Shown here piece by piece: positions 36,148 through 47,322 of a stretch of DNA of 50,726 bases. The position numbers and the translations under genes are program-made. Source of the stretch: an uncultured Clostridium sp. (lineage in GTDB: Bacteria > Bacillota > Clostridia > TANB77 > CAG-508); the NCBI GenBank assembly GCA_947302485.1, contig CAMYVO010000007.1:1-50726 (forward strand). The letters run 5' to 3'. The first letter of the stretch is position 1, and every line of letters starts with the position of its first letter. A model generated the notes under the pieces. The model was not told the DNA's origin. It did not search any database and saw only the letters and a list, made by a program, of their open reading frames with translations.

Positions 36148-38853
36148 CTAACTGTTTTCTATAATAAACTTTGCCCAATTATATATCTTTCCATAAGAAG
36201 CTTTTTTATACTCTTTAGAATTAATATTTTCAACTAACTCTTTAGATTCCACCTTAAATTCTGTAATATTCTTTATATTTTTTTCTTTAATTATTTCAAC
36301 TGCTTTGCTTATTTTATACGGTCTATTAGCTAATTGACAAAATTTCTTTTTAAATTCTATATCATCCACTTGTTTAGCATATTCTCTTCCTAATTTAGTC
36401 AAACCAATTGTATCTCCCCAGTAATATAATAAGCCTATTGCACTTAAGTCGTATAGTGATTTAGTATTTTTATTCTTATTATATACTTCTACATTTTCTA
36501 CAATATCATAAAAAGTTTTTATATCATCTTCCAACTTTTTCTGTGGTGTAAAACTGTTCAATTGATCTTTTACTTTTTTATTAGGCAAAAATCTTCCTTT
36601 TGAATCTCCTGTTAGTGGGTAAATTGCAATATCTTTATCATCAACATACCTTATCCAATTCAAGAAAATTCTTATATAAGTTCCCCAAGTTCTATTTTTA
36701 AAGTTATTCCCCTTAAATGTGTCTTTAAATATTTTTTCAATCTGCCCAATTGTTATATTTTCTTGATTTAATCTTTGTAATTTCAAATATGGTGTATATC
36801 TTTGAAATTTTTCCCTCATAAATTCAACGAAGTAATCCTTTGTAATTTCATTATTTTCACAAACGACTTTATAATAATTACCTTCTTTAACCACTAACCC
36901 CAAATTAATTAATTCACGCATTACATTGTCTGTGCTCTTTTCTGATAAATTTCCAATTTTTTTAGATAATTGATATGGAGTTTGCTTTATATCTCCTTTA
37001 AATAATAAAAACATATTTAAGCATGTTACAGGATGTTGTCTTAATAAATAACTTTCTCCTATTAAAGGTATATCATCTGTAACCAGATAGTCCCTAAATA
37101 TATCCCAATATATATTATATTTTGTACCAGATTGTATTACTAATCTTTTGTTTATAAGAGCCATTAATAATTGATTGTCAATTACATCATCTATTTCTGT
37201 AGCATCAAACATATTTCCATCAAATGCTCTTTTAGCAATATATTTTAATGCTTTTATTTCATTAGAGTTTAAATCTTCTAACTCTTTCTCAAATAAAGCT
37301 TTAATATTTAGTTCTTGTTCTAATAAATTTTCAAATGTCTTTCCACTCTTAATTTGATTGTACATATGTATACATAATTTTTTCGTTAACCATGGAAATC
37401 CTTGTGACCCCTCTACTATTCTTCTTCTAATATTTGGATCTAAGTTTTTTCCTATTGAGTTCTGTAATTGATTTATAACTCCATTTACTTCACTTGCATC
37501 AAATTCTCTCATACTAATTGAAAAAGTATACTCTTTCATTGTTTGCCATAAATAATATGCTTCATTATCTATTGGAACATTAATTTCTGTTTTCCAAGAA
37601 AATCCTAATAATATATTTCCACATAAATTATTAATATCTGTGAGAAATTTATAAAATACTTTAAAAATGTCTTCTTTTTTAAAAATATCTTCAAACTGAT
37701 CGAATATTAGTATCAAATATTTATTGTTATCTTTTAAATATTTAATTAATTCTTCAATGTAGCAGGAATTTAGTATATCATAGTTAGATCCAATTTCAAC
37801 TTGCGCACTTTGTGACTCCTTATTTATAAAATTTTCAGCTATTGATTTTTCTATCATTTTCTTTAATGATAATCCTATAAAATTATTAGTTGATGCACTT
37901 CTGGTATCCACTGCAAAAATAAAAAATTTCTTTTTATTATATCTATTTTTGCTTTTGTCTCTAATTGCAGAAATAAATGAACTTTTTCCCCATCCTGATT
38001 TTCCATCTATATAAAATACTCTTTTTTCAGTTTCATTATTTCTAACACTATTTAAAAAACCAAAAAAATCTTCAATTAAATCTTTTCTTCCTACAAAATG
38101 CTTTCCTGCTGTTGGTAAATAATCAAACCAATTATCACTTTGTTTTAGTTCTGCAACTTTTTCTATTGGTTGTTGCTCGGTTAATAATTCGTATGGAATC
38201 TTTTCATTTTCAATATTTACATATTCTAAATCCTTTATTTCCTCAATATGATTATAAATTAATTCTATTTTTTCTTCATCTTCTACAATCTTATTTGTCT
38301 TAGCATCCATTACAGTAAATTGATTATTCAATGTATTTTCTTGCATAATAAAAACTCTATATATTCCAAAATAAGAATATACTAATATCTCTTTAACAAA
38401 TCTAAAACCGTTATATTTCTTCATATCAACTTCTTTAATTATTTTCGCGTCTTCCAATAATTCAATTATTTTTGTAGGACCCCAAAAATATAAATTATTG
38501 TATTCTTTCTTTTGATTCATTTCTTCTATTAGTCCTGCGACTTGATGTGCATAATCTGTAGTAGATAAAAAATATCCATACTGTGCATCTTTAAATTTTG
38601 TATTAAACGCAAAACTTTTTATATCTTTTGCTTCTAAACTTTGTCTAGCTTTACATTCTATATACACAATTTCATTTTTTCTATCTATGTGTTGTGCTAT
38701 TAAATCAATTTCCATTCCAGTAAAATTGACTCTTTCTTTTATTGCATATCTTTGGGTTTTAAATATGTTTGAAACTATTTCTTCAAAAAAATCTCCCCTC
38801 TTTATCGCATTATCTTCCTTGTTAACAATTATATTCAACTCTCTTTTATGCAT
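36148..38853 (-). CDS. Nuclease-STAND NTPase fusion, putative defence protein
   Basis: A 901-residue protein with three parts. Residues 15-140 form a PD-(D/E)xK restriction-endonuclease-like (Mrr-type) domain: D50 in GMEIDLIA and E66-x-K68 in YIECKAR. Residues 250-520 form a STAND-type P-loop NTPase: 'HFVGRKDLIEDF', Walker A GKSGWGKSS (284-292) and Walker B LILIFDQFEDIF (380-391). Residues 520-900 look like winged-helix and helical sensor modules. The effector-NTPase-sensor order is that of Avs-like or other nSTAND antiviral proteins, but I do not recognise a named system. It is transcribed alone, at the left end of a mobile element, a common place for defence cargo. Confidence 0.8.
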   Translation of the reverse strand: MHKRELNIIVNKEDNAIKRGDFFEEIVSNIFKTQRYAIKERVNFTGMEIDLIAQHIDRKNEIVYIECKARQSLEAKDIKSFAFNTKFKDAQYGYFLSTTDYAHQVAGLIEEMNQKKEYNNLYFWGPTKIIELLEDAKIIKEVDMKKYNGFRFVKEILVYSYFGIYRVFIMQENTLNNQFTVMDAKTNKIVEDEEKIELIYNHIEEIKDLEYVNIENEKIPYELLTEQQPIEKVAELKQSDNWFDYLPTAGKHFVGRKDLIEDFFGFLNSVRNNETEKRVFYIDGKSGWGKSSFISAIRDKSKNRYNKKKFFIFAVDTRSASTNNFIGLSLKKMIEKSIAENFINKESQSAQVEIGSNYDILNSCYIEELIKYLKDNNKYLILIFDQFEDIFKKEDIFKVFYKFLTDINNLCGNILLGFSWKTEINVPIDNEAYYLWQTMKEYTFSISMREFDASEVNGVINQLQNSIGKNLDPNIRRRIVEGSQGFPWLTKKLCIHMYNQIKSGKTFENLLEQELNIKALFEKELEDLNSNEIKALKYIAKRAFDGNMFDATEIDDVIDNQLLMALINKRLVIQSGTKYNIYWDIFRDYLVTDDIPLIGESYLLRQHPVTCLNMFLLFKGDIKQTPYQLSKKIGNLSEKSTDNVMRELINLGLVVKEGNYYKVVCENNEITKDYFVEFMREKFQRYTPYLKLQRLNQENITIGQIEKIFKDTFKGNNFKNRTWGTYIRIFLNWIRYVDDKDIAIYPLTGDSKGRFLPNKKVKDQLNSFTPQKKLEDDIKTFYDIVENVEVYNKNKNTKSLYDLSAIGLLYYWGDTIGLTKLGREYAKQVDDIEFKKKFCQLANRPYKISKAVEIIKEKNIKNITEFKVESKELVENINSKEYKKASYGKIYNWAKFIIENS

Positions 38854-38948
38854 CTATTTCTACTCCTCATTTTTTCTAATCTCTATTTTTAGTATTTTAT
38901 CATACTTTTTATAAATTTGCCAGACGTCTATCAAATTCAATTCGCGTT

Positions 38949-40178
38949 TTAGTAATTTTTCCCAATTTTCTTTCTTCCCTCAAACACTTCAATCCTTTGT
39001 AACATATCCTCAACTGTAATTTCACCTTCAGCACATTCTTGTTTTAATTCTAAAGCCAAATAATTCCATTTATTAAACTCGCTTTTTGAAATTATTTTTC
39101 TATCTGCTTTATACTTATATCTTTTATATACTCTCCAATATTCTTTTTCTCCTGGTATATCTCCTGCTTTTTCTTTATGTCTATTCATTGCACCAACATC
39201 CTTACAGGTTTTATCTGTTCCTTTTATTGGTCGGTTACAGTATATTTCATCTTTTCTGTTTACTGGTATAAAATATTGATGACAATTTTCACATTCTTTA
39301 AATTCAATATCACTACTTACAAATTTCAGTAATTCAAATCTAATTAAATCATTCATATCTTTTATTTCATAGAGTTCCTTTATTTCTGTATTATCTCTTT
39401 TTATTACACTAATTAGGTCTTTACTAGTCTTATATTCAATATTTTCATCTAAGTTAGGAACTGCTCTATAAAATACATTAAATGGCTTATTTATATAAAA
39501 ATTATCCTGTTTATTTTCTATAATTCTTGATTGATCAAGTAAATATAATTTTTGAGTATTTGACATTTCCTCTAATTCGCTATTAGTTACTTTTTTATAA
39601 ATATAATCTATTTCTTGCTTTAAAATATCTCTTTTTCTTTTTATATCAGTTATTATTTCTTCTCTTACATAATGATAAAAATTTATATAACTTTCTTTTT
39701 TATTCTCATCAACTACTGATGCTAATTTTCTAATTCCCGCATATCTATCTATTTTTGACTTTTTATCATTACTTGCATTTTCATGTTCTATATAAATACA
39801 GTTTTTTACAGTAGTATCTGGCATTCTTTTTTCTAAAATGTCCATTCTCTCTACTCCACTTATTGGCGTTTCAGACATTATCTCATATAGCATTTGTGTA
39901 TAAAAATGCATATAAACACAACTATTATCCATTTGTCCCATTAAGTCTTGTATCAAATCTATGTATTGAAACATTGATATTTTTGTATTTGAAGCATTTT
40001 TTGTTAAGTAATCAATCACTTGTGTATATGCAGTATTAATTTCATCAATATCTATATACATAAAATTTAATAGATGTATTCCTAACGGAAATTCCATCAT
40101 TTGTACTCCCAAAAAATCCTCATTATCTGGATAAATACATATATGATTATTTTCTGTTAAAGTCGCATATAAAGCCAT
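38949..40178 (-). CDS. DUF6076-like zinc-motif protein
   Basis: A 409-residue protein. The first 280 residues are helical without clear motifs. The C-terminal part carries a zinc-ribbon-like CENCHQYFIPVNRKDEIYCNRPI, with a later KTCKDVGAMNRHKEK segment, which resembles the C-terminus of DUF6076 proteins seen beside integrases in Clostridia (from memory). The start at 40178 (MALYATLTENN) has AGGAGAGG 5 nt upstream. It is divergent from the excisionase gene, and its promoter region has three CGAT words (40201-40245) that may be operator sites. The function is unknown. Confidence 0.7.
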   Translation of the reverse strand: MALYATLTENNHICIYPDNEDFLGVQMMEFPLGIHLLNFMYIDIDEINTAYTQVIDYLTKNASNTKISMFQYIDLIQDLMGQMDNSCVYMHFYTQMLYEIMSETPISGVERMDILEKRMPDTTVKNCIYIEHENASNDKKSKIDRYAGIRKLASVVDENKKESYINFYHYVREEIITDIKRKRDILKQEIDYIYKKVTNSELEEMSNTQKLYLLDQSRIIENKQDNFYINKPFNVFYRAVPNLDENIEYKTSKDLISVIKRDNTEIKELYEIKDMNDLIRFELLKFVSSDIEFKECENCHQYFIPVNRKDEIYCNRPIKGTDKTCKDVGAMNRHKEKAGDIPGEKEYWRVYKRYKYKADRKIISKSEFNKWNYLALELKQECAEGEITVEDMLQRIEVFEGRKKIGKNY

Positions 40179-40256
40179 TTTACCTCTCCTTAATTTTTGG
40201 AATATCGATATTTGATATTTTTTAGAAAATCGATTTCTACGATACATATTATACAA

Positions 40257-40504
40257 AACTATTGCATTTTTTTCAATATGGTTTTATCATTTCCATCAGA
40301 AGCAAATAAAAATTTTATATTTGCTATAGCACATTGAAAACTAAATAGTCCAGATATATACAGATAATGAAACTTCTACCTGGCTAACGTGATGTAAAGG
40401 GGTAGCTCTCTTGGCTTGAGGGAATGGAAACAAAACCATTATGGTATTAAATACATATATAAGGACATTAAACAAAAAATTTTAATCAAGGAGGACTAAC
40501 ACAT
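40257..40504. promoter_or_regulatory. Divergent control region between DUF6076-like and excisionase genes
   Basis: A 248-bp non-coding stretch. It is less AT-rich in the middle (40376-40440), where CTACC (40377) can pair with GGGTAG (40400), and an ACCATTATGGT palindrome follows at 40435. The long 5' leader of the excisionase gene is therefore possibly structured. No firm -35/-10 pair was found. AAGGAGG stands before the excisionase start. Confidence 0.4.
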
Positions 40505-40708
40505 ATGAAAAGTACATTTAAAACAAACGAAGAATTACCAGCAACATTGTCGGCGACAGATATAAGTAAATACTTAGGAATTTCAAAAGCTAATTCTTAT
40601 CAATTGATGAATCGTTCTGATTTTCCTACATTAAGACTTGGCAAAAGAAAATTAGTACCAAAAGATAAATTTTTAATATGGGTAAATAACAATACAAATG
40701 TTATTTAG
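40505..40708 (+). CDS. xis: Excisionase-like helix-turn-helix protein
   Basis: A 67-residue MerR-like/HTH_17 DNA-binding protein: 'LSATDISKYLGISKANSYQLMNRSDFPTLRLGKRKLVPKDKFLIWVNNN'. This is the usual small 'excisionase family' protein of Gram-positive integrative elements. It either bends att DNA to favour excision or regulates the operon. AAGGAGG lies before the ATG. The replication protein gene follows by 12 bp, so it heads the replication-mobilisation operon, about 4.5 kb from the integrase gene. Confidence 0.85.
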   Translation: MKSTFKTNEELPATLSATDISKYLGISKANSYQLMNRSDFPTLRLGKRKLVPKDKFLIWVNNNTNVI

Positions 40709-40720
40709 AAGGAGTAACTT

Positions 40721-42643
40721 ATGGAAGAAAACATAAATAAAAAAAATAATATTCAGGTAAATGCTTTAAATGTTGGCACAGAGAAAGCATCTTCTAAATA
40801 TTATTCTTATCAAAATGATTATACTGATATTATACAGGCAAATACAAATAATTTCAATGGAAATGAAGAAATTTCTTTAAGTTCTCTATTTCAAAACACA
40901 CCTTATGAAATAATTGATAGCTGTTTATACAAGGTTACAAATAAGAAAGGTAATAAGGTTTATCAGAAATTATCTAACTTTGTTCCCTATTTAAAGAATG
41001 AAACAATTATTGATGATGGTGTAGATAGCAAAAGATATTTAGTTATGGAAGGTAGACATTCTAATGGAAAGAAATTACCTTCTATTAGAATATCTGCAAA
41101 TGATTTTAACAATATGAACTGGATAACAAAAAACTGGGGGTTACATTGTAATATTGAAACAGGACAAACTGTAAAAGACTGTATAAGACATGCTATTCAA
41201 TGTACTGCTAATAATATAATTACAGAACATATCTATTGTCATACTGGTTGGACAAAAATCAATAATAAATTAGTATTTTTATCTAATGGCTTATATTTAG
41301 CTAATGATATAGAAGCAAATGTTGAATTAGACGGTAAACTATCAAGATATCGTTTAACAGATGTTACTGAAAGAAATATTGATGAAGATTTAAATTGTAT
41401 AAAGAAATTACTAGATACTGAGTTTATACCACATAAAATTATACTCCCTTTAATTGCTTTAGCATTTTTATCTCCATTAAATCATTTTCTAAAAATTGCT
41501 GATTGTGAACCTAAATTAGTATTATTTCTAGTTGGAAAAACAGGAGCTAAAAAAAGCACTTTAGCTTCTCTTATTCTATCTTTCTTTGGAGATTTTACTA
41601 ATACAGATTTACCGATATCTTTTAGAGATACAGCTAACAGTATTATAGCCCAAGCATTTATTCTAAAAGATGTTTTAACAGTAATTGACGACTACCACCC
41701 TTCTACAAAATCAGATGAACAGTCTATGAATAAAACAGCCCAAGTAATTATGAGATCTTATGGCGATAGAATAGGCAAAAATAGATTAAATTGTGATAGT
41801 ACATTAAAAATATCAAAACCACCTAGAGGAAATGTAATTATTACTGGAGAATCTACTCCTGATATTTCTCAAAGTGGAACTGCTAGATATATAAGTATTG
41901 AGTTAAATCCAAATGATATTAATATTACAAAATTGACTGAACTTCAAGAGTTATCAAGAAATGGTGTTTTTAAATCTGTTATGAGTTTTTATATTAGATT
42001 AATTTACCAATATTTAAATGGCGTTTATACTGAAAAACAATATGCTGATAGATTAAGAAAAGCTTTTATGCAAAACAGAGAGATTTTAAATTCAGAATTA
42101 ACAAGTAAAAAAATACCTTTTCATCCTAGAATACCAGAAGCATTATCTTGGCTCTTTATAGGATTTGAGAAATTTTTAAATCTTATGAGCAACGAAAAAA
42201 TTTTAACAGATGATGAACTTCAATCCTTAGTTTCCGAGTTCGTAGATATTTCAATTAACTCAGCAATATCTCAAGCTAAAAAAGTAACTGAAGATAATCC
42301 TAGCATAAAGTTTATTACTAAATTAAATTCATTGTTAGAAGGTAAACTAGCAAGAGTTCAAAATTTAAAAACTTATCAATATGCAGGTGGAGATGGTTTT
42401 ATTGGCTATGAAGATGATACTTATTATTATCTAATACCTAGTATATCCCATAAATTAGTAAAAAAACTTTGTGATGAACAAGGAGAACTATTTTCAGTAA
42501 GCGAGAAAACTTTGTTAAAACATTTAGATGAAGATGGATTTATAGAAATTTCAAAAAGCAGTAGAACTAAACTATTGCGAATTGGCGATAAAGTACAAAG
42601 ATTTATATGGATAAAAAAAGAAAAATTTAATAGTATTATATAA
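40721..42643 (+). CDS. Replication ATPase/helicase (DUF927-like)
   Basis: A 640-residue protein. The middle carries a P-loop NTPase: Walker A VGKTGAKKST (271-280) and Walker B VLTVIDDYHP (about 316-325), followed by a sensor-like 'VIITGE' and an 'ISQSGTARYISIEL' arginine-finger region. The N-terminal third resembles DUF927/primase-associated proteins of IMEs and phage satellites. The C-terminal 100 residues form a winged-helix-like tail ('VSEKTLLKHLDEDGFIEI'). It probably unwinds DNA at the iteron cluster directly downstream (42653-42839). Replicative function is inferred. Confidence 0.82.
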   Translation: MEENINKKNNIQVNALNVGTEKASSKYYSYQNDYTDIIQANTNNFNGNEEISLSSLFQNTPYEIIDSCLYKVTNKKGNKVYQKLSNFVPYLKNETIIDDGVDSKRYLVMEGRHSNGKKLPSIRISANDFNNMNWITKNWGLHCNIETGQTVKDCIRHAIQCTANNIITEHIYCHTGWTKINNKLVFLSNGLYLANDIEANVELDGKLSRYRLTDVTERNIDEDLNCIKKLLDTEFIPHKIILPLIALAFLSPLNHFLKIADCEPKLVLFLVGKTGAKKSTLASLILSFFGDFTNTDLPISFRDTANSIIAQAFILKDVLTVIDDYHPSTKSDEQSMNKTAQVIMRSYGDRIGKNRLNCDSTLKISKPPRGNVIITGESTPDISQSGTARYISIELNPNDINITKLTELQELSRNGVFKSVMSFYIRLIYQYLNGVYTEKQYADRLRKAFMQNREILNSELTSKKIPFHPRIPEALSWLFIGFEKFLNLMSNEKILTDDELQSLVSEFVDISINSAISQAKKVTEDNPSIKFITKLNSLLEGKLARVQNLKTYQYAGGDGFIGYEDDTYYYLIPSISHKLVKKLCDEQGELFSVSEKTLLKHLDEDGFIEISKSSRTKLLRIGDKVQRFIWIKKEKFNSII

Positions 42644-42652
42644 TATTTTTTC

Positions 42653-42839
42653 TGTTACAATTGTTACACTTTTCTGAAACACATACTGCTGTAAGAAATT
42701 ATTCGTAACATTTATAATAAATTATCTGATTCAAAAATGAAACAGATTTTGTTACAACTTGTAGCAGATATGTAACAACAAAATAATTCTTAAAACATTT
42801 TATAATACTATATCTTATAGATTTGTAACAGATGTAACA
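42653..42839. repeat. TGTAACA iteron cluster, putative replication origin
   Basis: Seven copies of TGTTACA/TGTAACA or its core lie at 42653, 42662, 42705, 42750, 42771, 42824 and 42833. The outer pairs are spaced exactly 9 bp (42653/42662 and 42824/42833) and face each other in opposite orientation, which gives the region overall dyad symmetry. It follows the replication ATPase gene and precedes mobC. This fits an iteron origin or Rep-binding control site. Confidence 0.7.
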
Positions 42840-42912
42840 GTATTATTATATATACTACTCTCTATCTTGATAAGATTAAGCTATTCTTTATAGTTTTTTT
42901 CTTGGCAAGATT

Positions 42913-42967
42913 CCTAATTGTATAGACATACAATTAGCTTTCACACCCAAATTTTTAAATTAGGTGT
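42913..42967 (+). other. Candidate origin of transfer (two hairpins before mobC)
   Basis: CTAATTGTAT (42914-42923) and ATACAATTAG (42928-42937) form a perfect 10-bp hairpin with a 4-nt loop. ACACC...GGTGT (42943-42967), with inner AATTT/AAATT, forms a second. Both lie 55-105 bp upstream of mobC and the relaxase gene, where oriT normally lies in MobC/relaxase modules. The second hairpin is followed by six T and could alternatively be a terminator. Confidence 0.4.
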
Positions 42968-43019
42968 TCTTTTTTGGGAGAGCCCAAACCCCTTTAAAAG
43001 AATTGGGAGAAAGGAATTA

Positions 43020-43334
43020 ATGATGAGAAAAAGTAATAAACAAATAAATTTTAGAGTTAGTGAAAAAGAATATTGCTATATAAAAAAGCAAGCAGAAAAA
43101 TCAAATACTACTTTAACTGACTATTTAAAATATTCAGCACTCAATAAGAACATATATGTAATTAATGGATTAGATGATGCTACAAGAGAACTCGCTAAAA
43201 TAGGAAATAACTTAAATCAATTAACCAGACTATGTCATCAAGGTGTTATTACTTGTTTAGATTTAAGTGATATTAGAGAGCAGGTGAAACATATATGGCA
43301 ATTATTAAATTTACTAACTCCAAGTCAACTTTAA
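43020..43334 (+). CDS. mobC: MobC-type relaxosome accessory protein
   Basis: A 104-residue protein with an N-terminal ribbon-helix-helix ('KQINFRVSEKEYCYIKKQAEKSNTTLTDYLKYSAL') and the MobC signature 'ELAKIGNNLNQLTRLCHQG'. MobC helps to open oriT DNA for the relaxase. I chose the start at 43020 (MMRKSNKQ), because GGAGAAAGG lies just upstream; an open frame runs back to 42918 but crosses the hairpins. The relaxase gene overlaps its end by 40 bp in another frame, so the two are translationally coupled. Confidence 0.9.
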   Translation: MMRKSNKQINFRVSEKEYCYIKKQAEKSNTTLTDYLKYSALNKNIYVINGLDDATRELAKIGNNLNQLTRLCHQGVITCLDLSDIREQVKHIWQLLNLLTPSQL

Positions 43335-44545
43335 AACATATTATAAATTACATTACACAAGATGCTAAAACTACTACTGAATTAATTACGGGAAAAGATT
43401 GCACTTCAGACAATGCTTTAGAAGAAATGCAAACTGTAAAAAATTTATATAATAAAACAACTGGCAGACAATATATTCACTTAGTACAATCTTTCTCCCC
43501 TAATGATAATTTAAGTTTTGAAAAAGCACATGAAATTGGATTACAGCTTGCTAAGCAATACAGAGGTTTCCAGGTACTAGTTGCAACACACACTGACAGA
43601 GAACATATACATAATCACCTAGTAATAAATTCTGTATCTTTTGAAGATGGTAAAAAATTTCAACAAAGTCAAAAAGATATGGAGAAAATAAAAGAATTTT
43701 CAAATAAATTATGTGCTGAAAATGGACTTGCTACTATTGAATTAAAATCCACCTCAAAAGTTAGTAGTAATATAACATTAAAAGAATATCAAGTAGCAAT
43801 GAAAGGTAAAAGTTGGAAAATGAAATTAATAAATGCTATTGATTTTTCAATGGCTAATTCATTAAGTAAAGATGAATTTATATCAAATATGAATAGTCTA
43901 GGCTATCAAGTTACTTGGACTGATACACGAAAGAATATTACTTACACTACTCCAAATGGAATGAAATGTAGAGATAATAAATTATATGATGATAAATATT
44001 TAAAGGAGAATATGCAAAATGAATTTAATAGAAAATTTAAAAGAGAAAAATCAAATACCTCAACAAACACAAATGAAAGCAGAATTTTACACAGTTCAAC
44101 CAGAAACGTGGATAACTCTATTCAAATGGATAGAAGATACGAAAGACAAAATCAAAAATATGGAATACAAAATGGACAAGCAAATATCAATGACAGATAT
44201 TTTGAATACACTCAAGAAGGAACTTACAGAAGCAACAAGAATACATTTGGAAGTTCAGATGATGAAATATCAAGAGGAGTTGAAGGAACTTCAGAAGATA
44301 AAATGGAAAAATATATTCAAAGGAATACCAATAGGTATTGTGATAGGTATTTTAGTAACCGTTCTTTGGATACACTAATCTCTCTTGCCTATTTACTACA
44401 AAATAATCAAGAGAATCAAAATAGACCAAAAAGAATAATTAGAGGTTTTAGAAATTTAAGCAAACGAGCTAGAAAAGAATGGATTTTAAAACATAAAAAT
44501 TCAAGTAGTTTCAATTGGTTCGAAGAAGATGAATGGGAAATGTAA
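43295..44545 (+). CDS. mobA: Mobilization relaxase (MobA/VirD2 family)
   Basis: A 416-residue relaxase that nicks oriT and pilots single-stranded DNA. The N-terminal domain has a candidate catalytic Tyr19 (HIINYITQ) and the HUH metal site H104-I-H106-N-H108 in HTDREHIHNHLVINS. Residues 1-230 form the relaxase domain. The C-terminal half is low-complexity and basic, and its coding DNA also encodes a second protein in the +1 frame (44019-44378). The start codon sits inside mobC. Length is typical of small Gram-positive mobilizable elements. Confidence 0.92.
   Translation: MAIIKFTNSKSTLKHIINYITQDAKTTTELITGKDCTSDNALEEMQTVKNLYNKTTGRQYIHLVQSFSPNDNLSFEKAHEIGLQLAKQYRGFQVLVATHTDREHIHNHLVINSVSFEDGKKFQQSQKDMEKIKEFSNKLCAENGLATIELKSTSKVSSNITLKEYQVAMKGKSWKMKLINAIDFSMANSLSKDEFISNMNSLGYQVTWTDTRKNITYTTPNGMKCRDNKLYDDKYLKENMQNEFNRKFKREKSNTSTNTNESRILHSSTRNVDNSIQMDRRYERQNQKYGIQNGQANINDRYFEYTQEGTYRSNKNTFGSSDDEISRGVEGTSEDKMEKYIQRNTNRYCDRYFSNRSLDTLISLAYLLQNNQENQNRPKRIIRGFRNLSKRARKEWILKHKNSSSFNWFEEDEWEM
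44019..44378 (+). CDS. MobB-like protein nested inside mobA (alternate frame)
   Basis: This 119-residue ORF lies wholly inside the relaxase gene in another frame, with AAGGAG 14 nt before its ATG. The product has a helical, Glu/Lys-rich coiled-coil region (about residues 40-90) and a clean C-terminal membrane segment (IFKGIPIGIVIGILVTVLWIH). Coiled coil plus C-terminal anchor, nested in the relaxase gene, is the known arrangement of MobB/MbeB-type accessory proteins of RSF1010, ColE1 and staphylococcal plasmids. Chance open frames seldom combine a ribosome binding site with such an ordered hydrophobic end. The relaxase frame here encodes a weakly constrained linker, which permits the overlap. 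Confidence 0.68.
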   Translation: MNLIENLKEKNQIPQQTQMKAEFYTVQPETWITLFKWIEDTKDKIKNMEYKMDKQISMTDILNTLKKELTEATRIHLEVQMMKYQEELKELQKIKWKNIFKGIPIGIVIGILVTVLWIH

Positions 44546-44563
44546 AATATTTTCAAAAAAAGT

Positions 44564-44606
44564 TTGACTTTTGTCCGACAATATAGTATTATATATTTGT
44601 CAGACA
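44564..44606 (+). promoter_or_regulatory. Promoter with two TGTCNGACA operators (RHH gene)
   Basis: TTGACT (44564-44569), 17-bp spacer, TATTAT (44587-44592). Palindromes TGTCCGACA (44572-44580, in the spacer) and TGTCAGACA (44598-44606, just after the -10) bracket the -10 box. A third TGTCAGACA lies at 44803-44811, after the small gene. Repressor binding would block polymerase, so autoregulation by the RHH protein is likely. Confidence 0.75.
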
Positions 44607-44622
44607 GAAGTGGAGGTGATTA

Positions 44623-44787
44623 ATGACTGACCGTAAAATGGGACGTCCAACTGATAATCCAAAAAATAATAGAATTACTATAAGATTAGATAATGATACA
44701 TTTCAAATATTAAATAATTATTGTAAAAAACATAATGTTAATTATACTGATGCTATTAGAGATTTTATTAAAAAGTTGGAAAAATAA
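44623..44787 (+). CDS. Ribbon-helix-helix repressor (54 aa)
   Basis: A 54-residue protein beginning MTDRKMGRPTDNPKNNRITI, then RLDNDTFQILNNYCKKHNVNYTDAIRDFIKKLEK. The 'R(I/T)TIRLD' strand followed by two helices is the Arc/CopG ribbon-helix-helix fold. TGGAGGTGAT precedes the ATG. Its promoter holds two TGTCNGACA palindromes and a third stands downstream, before the next gene, so it probably represses itself and tunes the following small protein and integrase genes. Such switches control excision in mobilizable elements. Target identity is inferred from the operators only. Confidence 0.8.
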   Translation: MTDRKMGRPTDNPKNNRITIRLDNDTFQILNNYCKKHNVNYTDAIRDFIKKLEK

Positions 44788-44802
44788 AAAGGAATTAGTA
44801 GC

Positions 44803-44811
44803 TGTCAGACA
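44803..44811. promoter_or_regulatory. Third TGTCAGACA operator
   Basis: Identical to the palindrome at 44598-44606, located after the RHH gene and upstream of the small-protein/integrase pair. It would allow the same repressor to act on those genes. Confidence 0.55.
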
Positions 44812-44845
44812 AACAATTTTACTAACTCCTTAGCCCTACCTTGCA

Positions 44846-44882
44846 GTAGAACCATATTTAGTATATCACATATGGTTTCTAC
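44846..44882. repeat. Inverted repeat before the integrase transcript
   Basis: GTAGAACCATAT (44846-44857) pairs with ATATGGTTTCTAC (44870-44882) apart from one bulged base. It lies 40 bp before the small gene at 44923. No T-tract follows, so it is more likely an operator or leader hairpin than a terminator. Confidence 0.45.
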
Positions 44883-44922
44883 TTACAATGAATTTTTTAA
44901 AATTGGAAGGAGAAACTTTTTT

Positions 44923-45198
44923 ATGAACAATGTTTTTGAAAAAATTTTTAATGATTTTCTATATGAAATCAAATCTAACTATCTTAGCAATTTACTTAAA
45001 GAAAATAATGATTATATTAAATTAACTAATGATATGCACACTTTTTTAGATGATTTAATTGATGAAATACCTGAATTTGATGAAATTCTAGATGATTTTC
45101 TAGATATTTTTTATCAGATTGTAGAAATTGAAAATAGCTTTTTATATCTTCAAGGATATATTGACTGCATAAATTTACTAAAACTTCTTGGTTCTTAA
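44923..45198 (+). CDS. Small acidic mobile-element protein (DUF6809-like)
   Basis: A 91-residue acidic helical protein (MNNVFEKIFNDFLYEI start) ending with 'SFLYLQGYIDCINLLKLL', resembling the C-termini of the small proteins at 104-412 and 50089-50379. The start at 44923 has AAGGAG 9 nt upstream; an open frame runs back to 44872 but lacks a ribosome binding site. The gene ends 16 bp before the integrase start and is probably co-transcribed. The function is unknown. Recurrence next to element functions suggests a role in element control rather than cargo. Confidence 0.7.
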   Translation: MNNVFEKIFNDFLYEIKSNYLSNLLKENNDYIKLTNDMHTFLDDLIDEIPEFDEILDDFLDIFYQIVEIENSFLYLQGYIDCINLLKLLGS

Positions 45199-45214
45199 AT
45201 CAAGGAGGTACCAA

Positions 45215-46501
45215 ATGTCAAAAAGAGGTCAAAATGAAGGCAGTATTAGACAAAGAAAAGATGGTACTTGGGAAGCTAGATATACAATTGGTGTAAAAGA
45301 GAATGGAAAACCTAACAGAAAATCTGTATATGCTAAAACAAGAAAAGAAGTTAAGGACAAACTAAATGCTATTTTGTTATCTCTAAAAAATGGAACTTAT
45401 ACTAATTCAAATAATGTATTATTTATAGACTGGCTTAGCAAGTGGCTTGAAACTTATGCTAAGCCTAATATAAAACTTGCTACATATACAAGCTATGAAA
45501 CATATATACGAGGTCATTTAAAACCTTATTTTCTAAATACAAAATTACAAGCTGTTTCAGCAGAAATGCTACAAAAATTCTTTAATTATAAACAAAATAA
45601 TGGTAGATTAGACAATCGTGAAGGTGGCTTATCTGCTAAAACTTTAAAGAATATATATAACATGCTACATGCCTCTTTCAAACAAGCATATATAAATGGA
45701 TTAGTTCAAACAAATATTGTTGAATCCATAAGAACACCTAAAATTTTTAAAAAGGAAATGCGAGTTCTAACTAGAGAAGAACAAAATAAATTAATTCATG
45801 TTGCAAGAAATTATAGACTTGGCATTGTTGTTATATTAGATTTATTTACAGGAATGAGATTAGGCGAAATCTTAGCTTTAAGATGGTGTGATGTTGATTT
45901 AAAAGGTGAAAGTTTAATTGTAAGAAATAGTATTAAAAGATTATCTACACATGAAAAAACGTCTAAAAATCAAAATAAAACTAAATTAATTTTAGATACT
46001 CCAAAATCTCAGACAAGTTATAGAGAAATACCACTTCTCTCTCCTATTGTTAAAGAATTAAAAGCTCACAAAAGTAAGCAAAATCTTGAAAAGCAATTAG
46101 CAAGTAACTCTTATATAAATAAAGATTTTCTATTTTGCAATACAATTGGAGAACCTTATGATCAGAAAACTTTTTGGAAAGAATATTCTCTAATGTTAGT
46201 AGAAGCTGGTCTAAGAGATAAAAAAGAAAAGCCTATTAGAAATAAAATTAAAAAGAATATAAAATCTAAGCCAAAATCTCATGCTGACAAAGTTCAAGTT
46301 ACATTCCATACTTTAAGACATACTTTTGCTACAAGAGCAATTGAACAAGGGATGGAAATTCCAGTACTTAGTAAAATTTTAGGACATGCTGATATAAGTA
46401 CCACTCTAAATAAATATTGCCATGCTATTCCAGATAGGAAACGTGAAAATATGGAAAAAATTGAGTGTTTATATGATGATAGCCTAGATGGCAAAATCTA
46501 G
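45215..46501 (+). CDS. int: Tyrosine recombinase/integrase
   Basis: A 428-residue Tn916/phage-type integrase that recombines att sites. The N-terminal AP2-like arm-binding domain (residues 1-50, GSIRQRKDGTWEARYTIG) is followed by the SAM-like core-binding domain (65-170) and the catalytic domain, with R215 (TGMRLGEI), H365-x2-R368 (HTLRHTF), H391 (LGHADISTT) and Y401 (NKYCH). All catalytic residues are present. The start at 45215 has AAGGAGG 6 nt upstream; the frame opens 27 nt earlier. The stop codon lies inside its terminator hairpin. Confidence 0.96.
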   Translation: MSKRGQNEGSIRQRKDGTWEARYTIGVKENGKPNRKSVYAKTRKEVKDKLNAILLSLKNGTYTNSNNVLFIDWLSKWLETYAKPNIKLATYTSYETYIRGHLKPYFLNTKLQAVSAEMLQKFFNYKQNNGRLDNREGGLSAKTLKNIYNMLHASFKQAYINGLVQTNIVESIRTPKIFKKEMRVLTREEQNKLIHVARNYRLGIVVILDLFTGMRLGEILALRWCDVDLKGESLIVRNSIKRLSTHEKTSKNQNKTKLILDTPKSQTSYREIPLLSPIVKELKAHKSKQNLEKQLASNSYINKDFLFCNTIGEPYDQKTFWKEYSLMLVEAGLRDKKEKPIRNKIKKNIKSKPKSHADKVQVTFHTLRHTFATRAIEQGMEIPVLSKILGHADISTTLNKYCHAIPDRKRENMEKIECLYDDSLDGKI

Positions 46502-46506
46502 GCTAT
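46479..46506 (+). terminator. Integrase terminator overlapping the stop codon
   Basis: ATAGCCTAGAT (46479-46489) pairs with ATCTAGGCTAT (46496-46506). The integrase TAG (46499-46501) lies in the 3' arm, followed by TATTATTCTAT. It may also end the convergent HD-domain operon. Confidence 0.7.
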
Positions 46507-46533
46507 TATTCTATATCTTATATATCTATTCTT

Positions 46534-47322
46534 TTAATCATTATTTATTTTTTTATCTATATATTTGTTTACAATCTGTCTTATATTTTCCATTCTACCT
46601 TTTGTTTCTTTATCTCTATATACAAATCTATCTATTAACACATTTATATAATCATTTTCTTTTACAATTTTATATGTTACATCAAAATTTAAATCAAATG
46701 TAAATGCTAATATGCATACCCAAAAATCTAATGGAGTAACTCTATCATGAATGTCTACACATCTTTTATTTATTACCGTTTCATATACTTTATCACTCAA
46801 TAAACTATTTTCCATATCTTCTTTTTTACTAACTCTAGTTGGAAATATTGCTTCTATTTTTTCATCTTTCTTCACTCTATAATTATCTAATTTATCAGCA
46901 TCTCTTATTATTTTTGAATGTAATAAAGTTCTTTCATCTAATCCTTCTTTTATCGCTAATCTACTATGATTTTCTATTGCATTTTTTATTATTTCATCAA
47001 ATTGATTATCTTCAATAAAATTTCTTATCATTCCGTTTTCAAATAACATTTTAGAGCCATGTAATGCATGATCATATTTAACACTATTCAATTCTTTAGT
47101 AACTTTTAGTTCTTCAAATCTTCCTATATCATGCAATAATCCAATTAATTCAGCAAGTTCTATATCTTCTTGATTTAATTTCAATTTTTCTGCTATTTCT
47201 TTTGCATTTTTTGCAACATGATATGTATGTACTACTTTTAAGTTAAAACTTACATGCTCTTTATCTTCATATTGATTTAAAAAAACTTTGAAAGCAATTT
47301 TTGCCTTTTCAATGTCAATCAT
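46534..47322 (-). CDS. HD-domain phosphohydrolase
   Basis: A 262-residue metal-dependent hydrolase of the HD superfamily. The metal ligands are H in 'VVHTYHVAKNA', HD in 'LIGLLHDIGRFEEL', the DHALHGS segment and D in 'IIRDADKLDNYR'. The substrate is unknown; relatives hydrolyse nucleotides. The start at 47322 (MIDIEKAK) has GGAGG 10 nt upstream. It is the last gene of a four-gene minus-strand operon (HD, Nudix, GNAT, HD) between the integrase and the right att site. Confidence 0.88.
   Translation of the reverse strand: MIDIEKAKIAFKVFLNQYEDKEHVSFNLKVVHTYHVAKNAKEIAEKLKLNQEDIELAELIGLLHDIGRFEELKVTKELNSVKYDHALHGSKMLFENGMIRNFIEDNQFDEIIKNAIENHSRLAIKEGLDERTLLHSKIIRDADKLDNYRVKKDEKIEAIFPTRVSKKEDMENSLLSDKVYETVINKRCVDIHDRVTPLDFWVCILAFTFDLNFDVTYKIVKENDYINVLIDRFVYRDKETKGRMENIRQIVNKYIDKKINND

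Follow-up and report, generated by a model that had tools for sequence, protein, structure and literature searches.

A predicted mobB-like gene nested in the relaxase gene of an integrative mobilizable element from an uncultured Clostridium

We identified a nested gene at positions 44019–44378 (forward strand) of the window, the 50,726-nucleotide stretch of DNA from an uncultured Clostridium sp. that was analysed here as a whole. As judged from comparison with related loci, it is a real protein-coding gene that is overprinted on the relaxase gene mobA in the +1 frame and has its own ribosome-binding site. Its product is quite probably a MobB-type relaxosome accessory protein that would act as a tail-anchored adaptor. 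The surrounding mobA (43295–44545, forward strand) encodes a MOBP-type relaxase of 416 amino acids (PF03432, E = 2.6e-37), and the overlap falls on the C-terminal linker of this protein, ahead of the conserved tail LSKRARKEW...FEEDEWEM. An earlier note on this DNA had described a 119-codon frame inside mobA with its own AAGGAG motif, and a check of the open reading frames agreed with it on coordinates, length, frame, complete containment and spacing. The predicted Shine-Dalgarno motif (44003–44008, forward strand) lies within Lys-Glu codons of the relaxase and is separated by a 10-nt spacer from the nested ATG at 44019; at this site, relaxases of this family that lack the nested gene usually have AAAGAA, CGAGAA or AAAGAC.

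The 119-residue protein is predicted to consist of a short N-terminal helix, a helical or coiled-coil body and a C-terminal tail anchor. Its last 23 residues (97–119) are hydrophobic with a Kyte-Doolittle value of 2.19, which agrees with the membrane segment proposed before, and the coiled coil proposed with it is plausible: AlphaFold2 modelled the protein, with moderate confidence, as all-helical, with helices at residues 2–10, 28–54 and 58–118 (mean pLDDT 69.7, pTM 0.27). A search for relatives among solved structures gave weak helical or coiled-coil matches and nothing better.

The relaxase gene is part of a predicted chromosomally integrated mobilizable element (IME) that extends over positions 38947–46537, the stretch common to the window and genome G227. 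This span is 81–88% identical to G227, and the flanks of G227 differ. Genes on the forward strand of the element encode an excisionase-like HTH protein (40505–40708, PF12728), a 640-amino-acid protein with the Walker-A-like motif GKTGAKKST and no Pfam match (40721–42643), which is probably the replication/helicase protein of the element, the NikA-like RHH relaxosome protein MobC (43020–43334, PF21983 with E = 6e-19 and PF05713 with E = 8e-11), whose gene overlaps the start of mobA, an RHH-type protein of 54 amino acids (44623–44787), and a tyrosine integrase (45215–46501, PF00589, E = 2e-24). The element has neither a VirD4 coupling protein nor a type IV secretion system (T4SS) of its own. The prediction as an IME derives from this gene content, and the earlier suggestion of an overlapping architecture in a chromosomal clostridial element was right in kind. 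No direct or att repeats of at least 9 nt marking the IME ends were found within the window. A perfect 10-nt inverted repeat (CTAATTGTAT/ATACAATTAG, 4-nt loop) at 42914–42937, upstream of mobC, is a candidate oriT feature. At the left end, a DUF6076 protein is encoded on the minus strand (38949–40256); it is probably cargo, because G227 has it too. The element is adjoined at 36148–38853 by a defence-like gene whose 901-amino-acid product has an Mrr-type nuclease domain and a STAND-like NTPase domain.

Genomes of the family, order and class were searched for relaxases, and a scripted survey of the results yielded 71 relaxase places in Clostridia. Thirty-five of these bear a +1 nested ORF of 113–187 amino acids that starts around relaxase codon 227–260, and they are spread over at least nine Clostridia families as defined by the group codes of the genome set. 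Hydropathy predicts a C-terminal membrane segment at all 35 loci, where the anchor lies at a median distance of 3 residues from the C-terminus and is preceded by a net basic flank at 31 of them; the hydrophobicity of the +1 frame is partly set by the relaxase codons (P < 0.001 to 0.2 per locus). Both expectations raised by the earlier note for homologues, an alternate frame that stays open and a hydrophobic C-terminus that is kept, were thus borne out. Searched with a profile of the nested protein, 284 family genomes contained intact copies at relaxases only, with all other matches being fragments or degenerate, and no free-standing intact MobB away from a relaxase. Individual loci have lost one or the other frame: a stop interrupts the nested frame in L122, the relaxase carries a stop and the nested ORF is intact in L016 and L061, and the nested stretch is gone through internal deletion in L023 and L024.

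An open +1 frame might simply result from the codon composition of the relaxase gene and encode nothing. When synonymous relaxase codons were resampled as a chance model, the +1 frame was open across the nested stretch in 2.6–3.6% of the recodings, and an equally long run in the +1 or +2 frame arose anywhere in the relaxase gene in 14%. Because 3–14% of recodings thus give such a frame, the window taken singly supports the claim only weakly, and it is the relatives that carry it. The nearest of these, L002, has a relaxase that is 84% identical and a nested protein that is 97% identical, and the relaxase frame within the overlap is 85% identical. Substitutions between the window and L002 at relaxase codon positions 1, 2 and 3 number 21, 18 and 43 upstream of the overlap, 15, 4 and 2 within it, and 9, 7 and 13 downstream. 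The third-position share accordingly drops from 0.52 upstream (43/82) to 0.10 in the overlap (2/21; Fisher p = 0.0004) and recovers to 0.45 downstream, which is the suppression of synonymous variation relative to the mobA frame that had been anticipated. The same drop was seen in seven further, partly non-independent pairs (p from 0.08 to 5e-8). The nested-frame pN/pS (pNN/pNS) is 0.03–0.37 in close pairs, which indicates purifying selection on the nested protein, as compared with a pNN/pSN of 0.27–1.15 for the relaxase frame within the overlap. By these ratios, selection guards the nested frame more tightly than the relaxase frame, and the relaxase there is largely a loose linker. The overlap is a clean case in which the nested and not the annotated frame bears most of the constraint. 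The collapse of third-position substitutions in the overlap only, the low nested-frame pN/pS, and the frame kept open with Shine-Dalgarno motif and tail anchor at 35 loci from nine or more families all speak against a codon by-product, which we regard as extremely improbable. The comparative substitution patterns refute a chance open frame, and the joint recurrence of open frame, Shine-Dalgarno motif, start, tail anchor and wobble shift across relatives argues for coding far beyond chance. Suppressed synonymous change by itself cannot distinguish a protein from a DNA or RNA element in the relaxase gene, such as a second oriT or an RNA structure. Here substitutions were moved to the wobble position of the nested frame and not suppressed overall, with the share at relaxase position 1 rising from 0.26 to 0.71 in the overlap, and nested-silent changes accrued about as fast as synonymous changes upstream of the overlap (pNS 0.26 versus upstream pS 0.33, window versus L002). 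This shift strongly disfavours a DNA or RNA element, which we consider highly improbable as an explanation.

The nested protein (P0001) matched no MbeB or DUF334 model in Pfam, NCBIfam or PHROGs. Membership in DUF334 (PF03904) was rejected, with no match up to an E value of 0.5, as was membership in the ColE1 MbeB family, for which neither Pfam nor NCBIfam gave a profile match. Searching plasmid records by tblastn with P0001 or with the MobB of a relative gave no match, the clostridial and Bacilli MobB profiles do not align (hhalign probability 5%), and sequence comparison detects no homology to MobB proteins of studied function. The clostridial nested proteins form a new family that the libraries do not recognise, within the nested-mobB architecture already known. 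This architecture is recognizable by position. Relaxase relatives with about 31–37% identity occur on plasmids of Staphylococcus, Macrococcus, Priestia, Planococcus and E. faecium, and the nested start falls at the same relaxase codon and in the same +1 frame in Clostridia and in eight Bacilli plasmid loci. In both groups, the Shine-Dalgarno motif is within conserved relaxase Lys-Glu/Gly codons and the ATG straddles a codon boundary four codons on. The clostridial gene thus has the arrangement of a pC221-type nested mobB, an ORF after the relaxase domain, in the +1 frame and with a Shine-Dalgarno motif in relaxase codons. Position points to a common origin of the clostridial nested gene and the Bacilli mobB, which sequence similarity alone cannot show.

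Among the known systems to which the nested frame had been likened, the staphylococcal pC221-type parallel holds, with the same codon and frame, and RSF1010 mobB and ColE1 mbeB are analogies. The RSF1010 MobB has a membrane segment, and the accessory genes for MbeB and MbeD of ColE1 are overprinted on the relaxase gene mbeA. ColE1 differs from the window in having a MOB-HEN relaxase. RSF1010 and R1162, in which MobB is likewise a small protein overlapping mobA and is required for the type IV system to transport the relaxase, differ by their Gram-negative background and a MOBQ relaxase with fused primase, and no library match named RSF1010 MobB. The overlap of mobB with mobA in RSF1010 (PMC5572225) and the partial overlap of staphylococcal mobA, mobB and mobC (PMC6157413) have been described. 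The staphylococcal pC221-type genes (NZ_CP034004, NZ_CP119111; MobB = DUF334) belong with a relaxase of the same family PF03432 (about 33% identity) and share with the window the mobC-mobA order, the +1 frame, the start and Shine-Dalgarno codons, and one or more C-terminal membrane segments. Staphylococcal MobB, however, has about 230–270 amino acids and two hydrophobic segments and extends beyond the end of mobA, whereas the clostridial protein is shorter, has one tail anchor and is fully nested. Unannotated nested MobB proteins of Priestia (NZ_CP140274) and Planococcus (NZ_CP016536) resemble the clostridial ones in register, Shine-Dalgarno motif, frame and single C-terminal membrane segment, but have 197–214 amino acids, extend beyond the relaxase stop and are encoded on replicating plasmids.

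The earlier note expected standard annotation to drop such a gene. According to the gene tables of PLSDB, which are incomplete by PLSDB's own statement, the nested mobB is absent from the Priestia and Planococcus plasmids, and it has a start 18–95 codons late in Macrococcus, S. aureus, S. equorum and S. epidermidis. In Macrococcus the nested mobB is listed and the relaxase is not. The Staphylococcus and Macrococcus versions carry a DUF334 or mobilization protein annotation. Since fully nested genes are dropped or shortened in this way, databases would lack or misname a part of the relaxosome in many mobile elements of Bacillota. The annotated DUF334/MobB genes of four staphylococcal plasmids (L039 2198–2890, L040 1056–1745, L041 2207–2977 and L042 2210–3019) look truncated, because they start 68–95 codons after the conserved nested start. 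A natural un-nesting is seen on a Vagococcus plasmid (L045 2406–2855), where a 149-amino-acid tail-anchored MobB-like protein is encoded directly after the relaxase; in a single comparison its N-terminus resembled the E. faecium nested ORF (E = 7e-5). The nested frame of the E. faecium plasmid (L038 3707–4003) ends early without a membrane segment, and downstream frames look broken.

The most interesting new lead, which is first described here, is the mutual exclusion of nested MobB and coupling protein. In the survey of 71 places, 35 had nested MobB only, 23 a VirD4-type coupling protein only, none had both and 13 had neither; the coupling-protein count covers the VirD4 type alone, and 20 of the 35 MobB loci had 5 kb of flanking sequence on each side. 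Where the nested frame is missing, the relaxase is in most cases short (301–334 amino acids) and followed by a VirD4-like coupling protein, usually about 1.2 kb from the relaxase start. An AGGAG-type sequence occupies the Shine-Dalgarno site in all 34 MobB loci with a full relaxase versus 8 of the 23 coupling-protein loci. Outside Clostridia, a related E. faecalis conjugative plasmid has VirD4 and lacks nested MobB, and a related Lactococcus plasmid has neither. The switch between MobB and coupling protein needs about three changes on the tree, so that the exclusion, though a strong pattern, depends on few events, and a phylogenetically controlled test of MobB against coupling protein was not significant with so few independent switches. 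Several of the 13 places with neither gene are broken, truncated or at contig ends. As some elements have neither gene, MobB is not universal in coupling-protein-less elements. Five relaxases with neither MobB nor a nearby coupling protein (L125, L127, L128, L129 and L171) show hydrophobic stretches within the C-terminal part of the relaxase itself, which may serve as a built-in anchor.

Anatomy, the exclusion pattern and the staphylococcal, RSF1010 and R1162 precedents are the grounds on which we infer that the protein inserts into the membrane, binds the relaxase or MobC and docks to the coupling protein of a helper. For R1162, the title of Parker & Meyer 2007 (cited in PMC10025392) states that relaxase transport signals require MobB; no open paper describing biochemical work on pC221 MobB was found. 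The helical N-terminal part of MobB, in the cytosol, would bind the relaxase or MobC at oriT, and the tail anchor at the C-terminus would keep the relaxosome membrane-bound. An element without its own coupling protein or mating channel could then rely on a VirD4-type coupling protein supplied by a conjugative element in the same cell. Through nesting, with the Shine-Dalgarno motif lying within mobA, MobB production would be tied in cis to that of the relaxase. Small proteins with a coiled coil and a tail anchor serve many functions, and the family of the nested protein is named in no library, so a real nested gene might instead encode an exclusion or entry-exclusion protein, a relaxase regulator or a small membrane toxin-like protein. 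We think this rather unlikely, as the gene is always nested in the relaxase of a mobilizable element and starts at the Bacilli mobB codon, and a toxin or exclusion function would give no reason to expect it to be missing from elements that carry a coupling protein. If the product is a MobB-type adaptor, a broader proposal follows that could equally well prove right or wrong: overprinted mobB would be ancient and systematically unannotated across this Bacillota relaxase family and would let coupling-protein-less elements hijack a foreign VirD4. With the same even confidence, as part of that proposal, elements keeping their own coupling protein would lack the nested gene and have a correspondingly short relaxase linker. 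Presence or absence of nested mobB would then predict hitchhiker elements from sequence, and the exclusion offers a testable hypothesis on how mobilizable elements connect to a helper, a question in Gram-positive conjugation. In the genome of the window itself, other contigs (G000:C20:568–1773 and G000:C8:4943–5329) carry a VirD4-type coupling protein gene with a single internal TAG as well as a second MOBP relaxase; these are possibly a helper or its remains.
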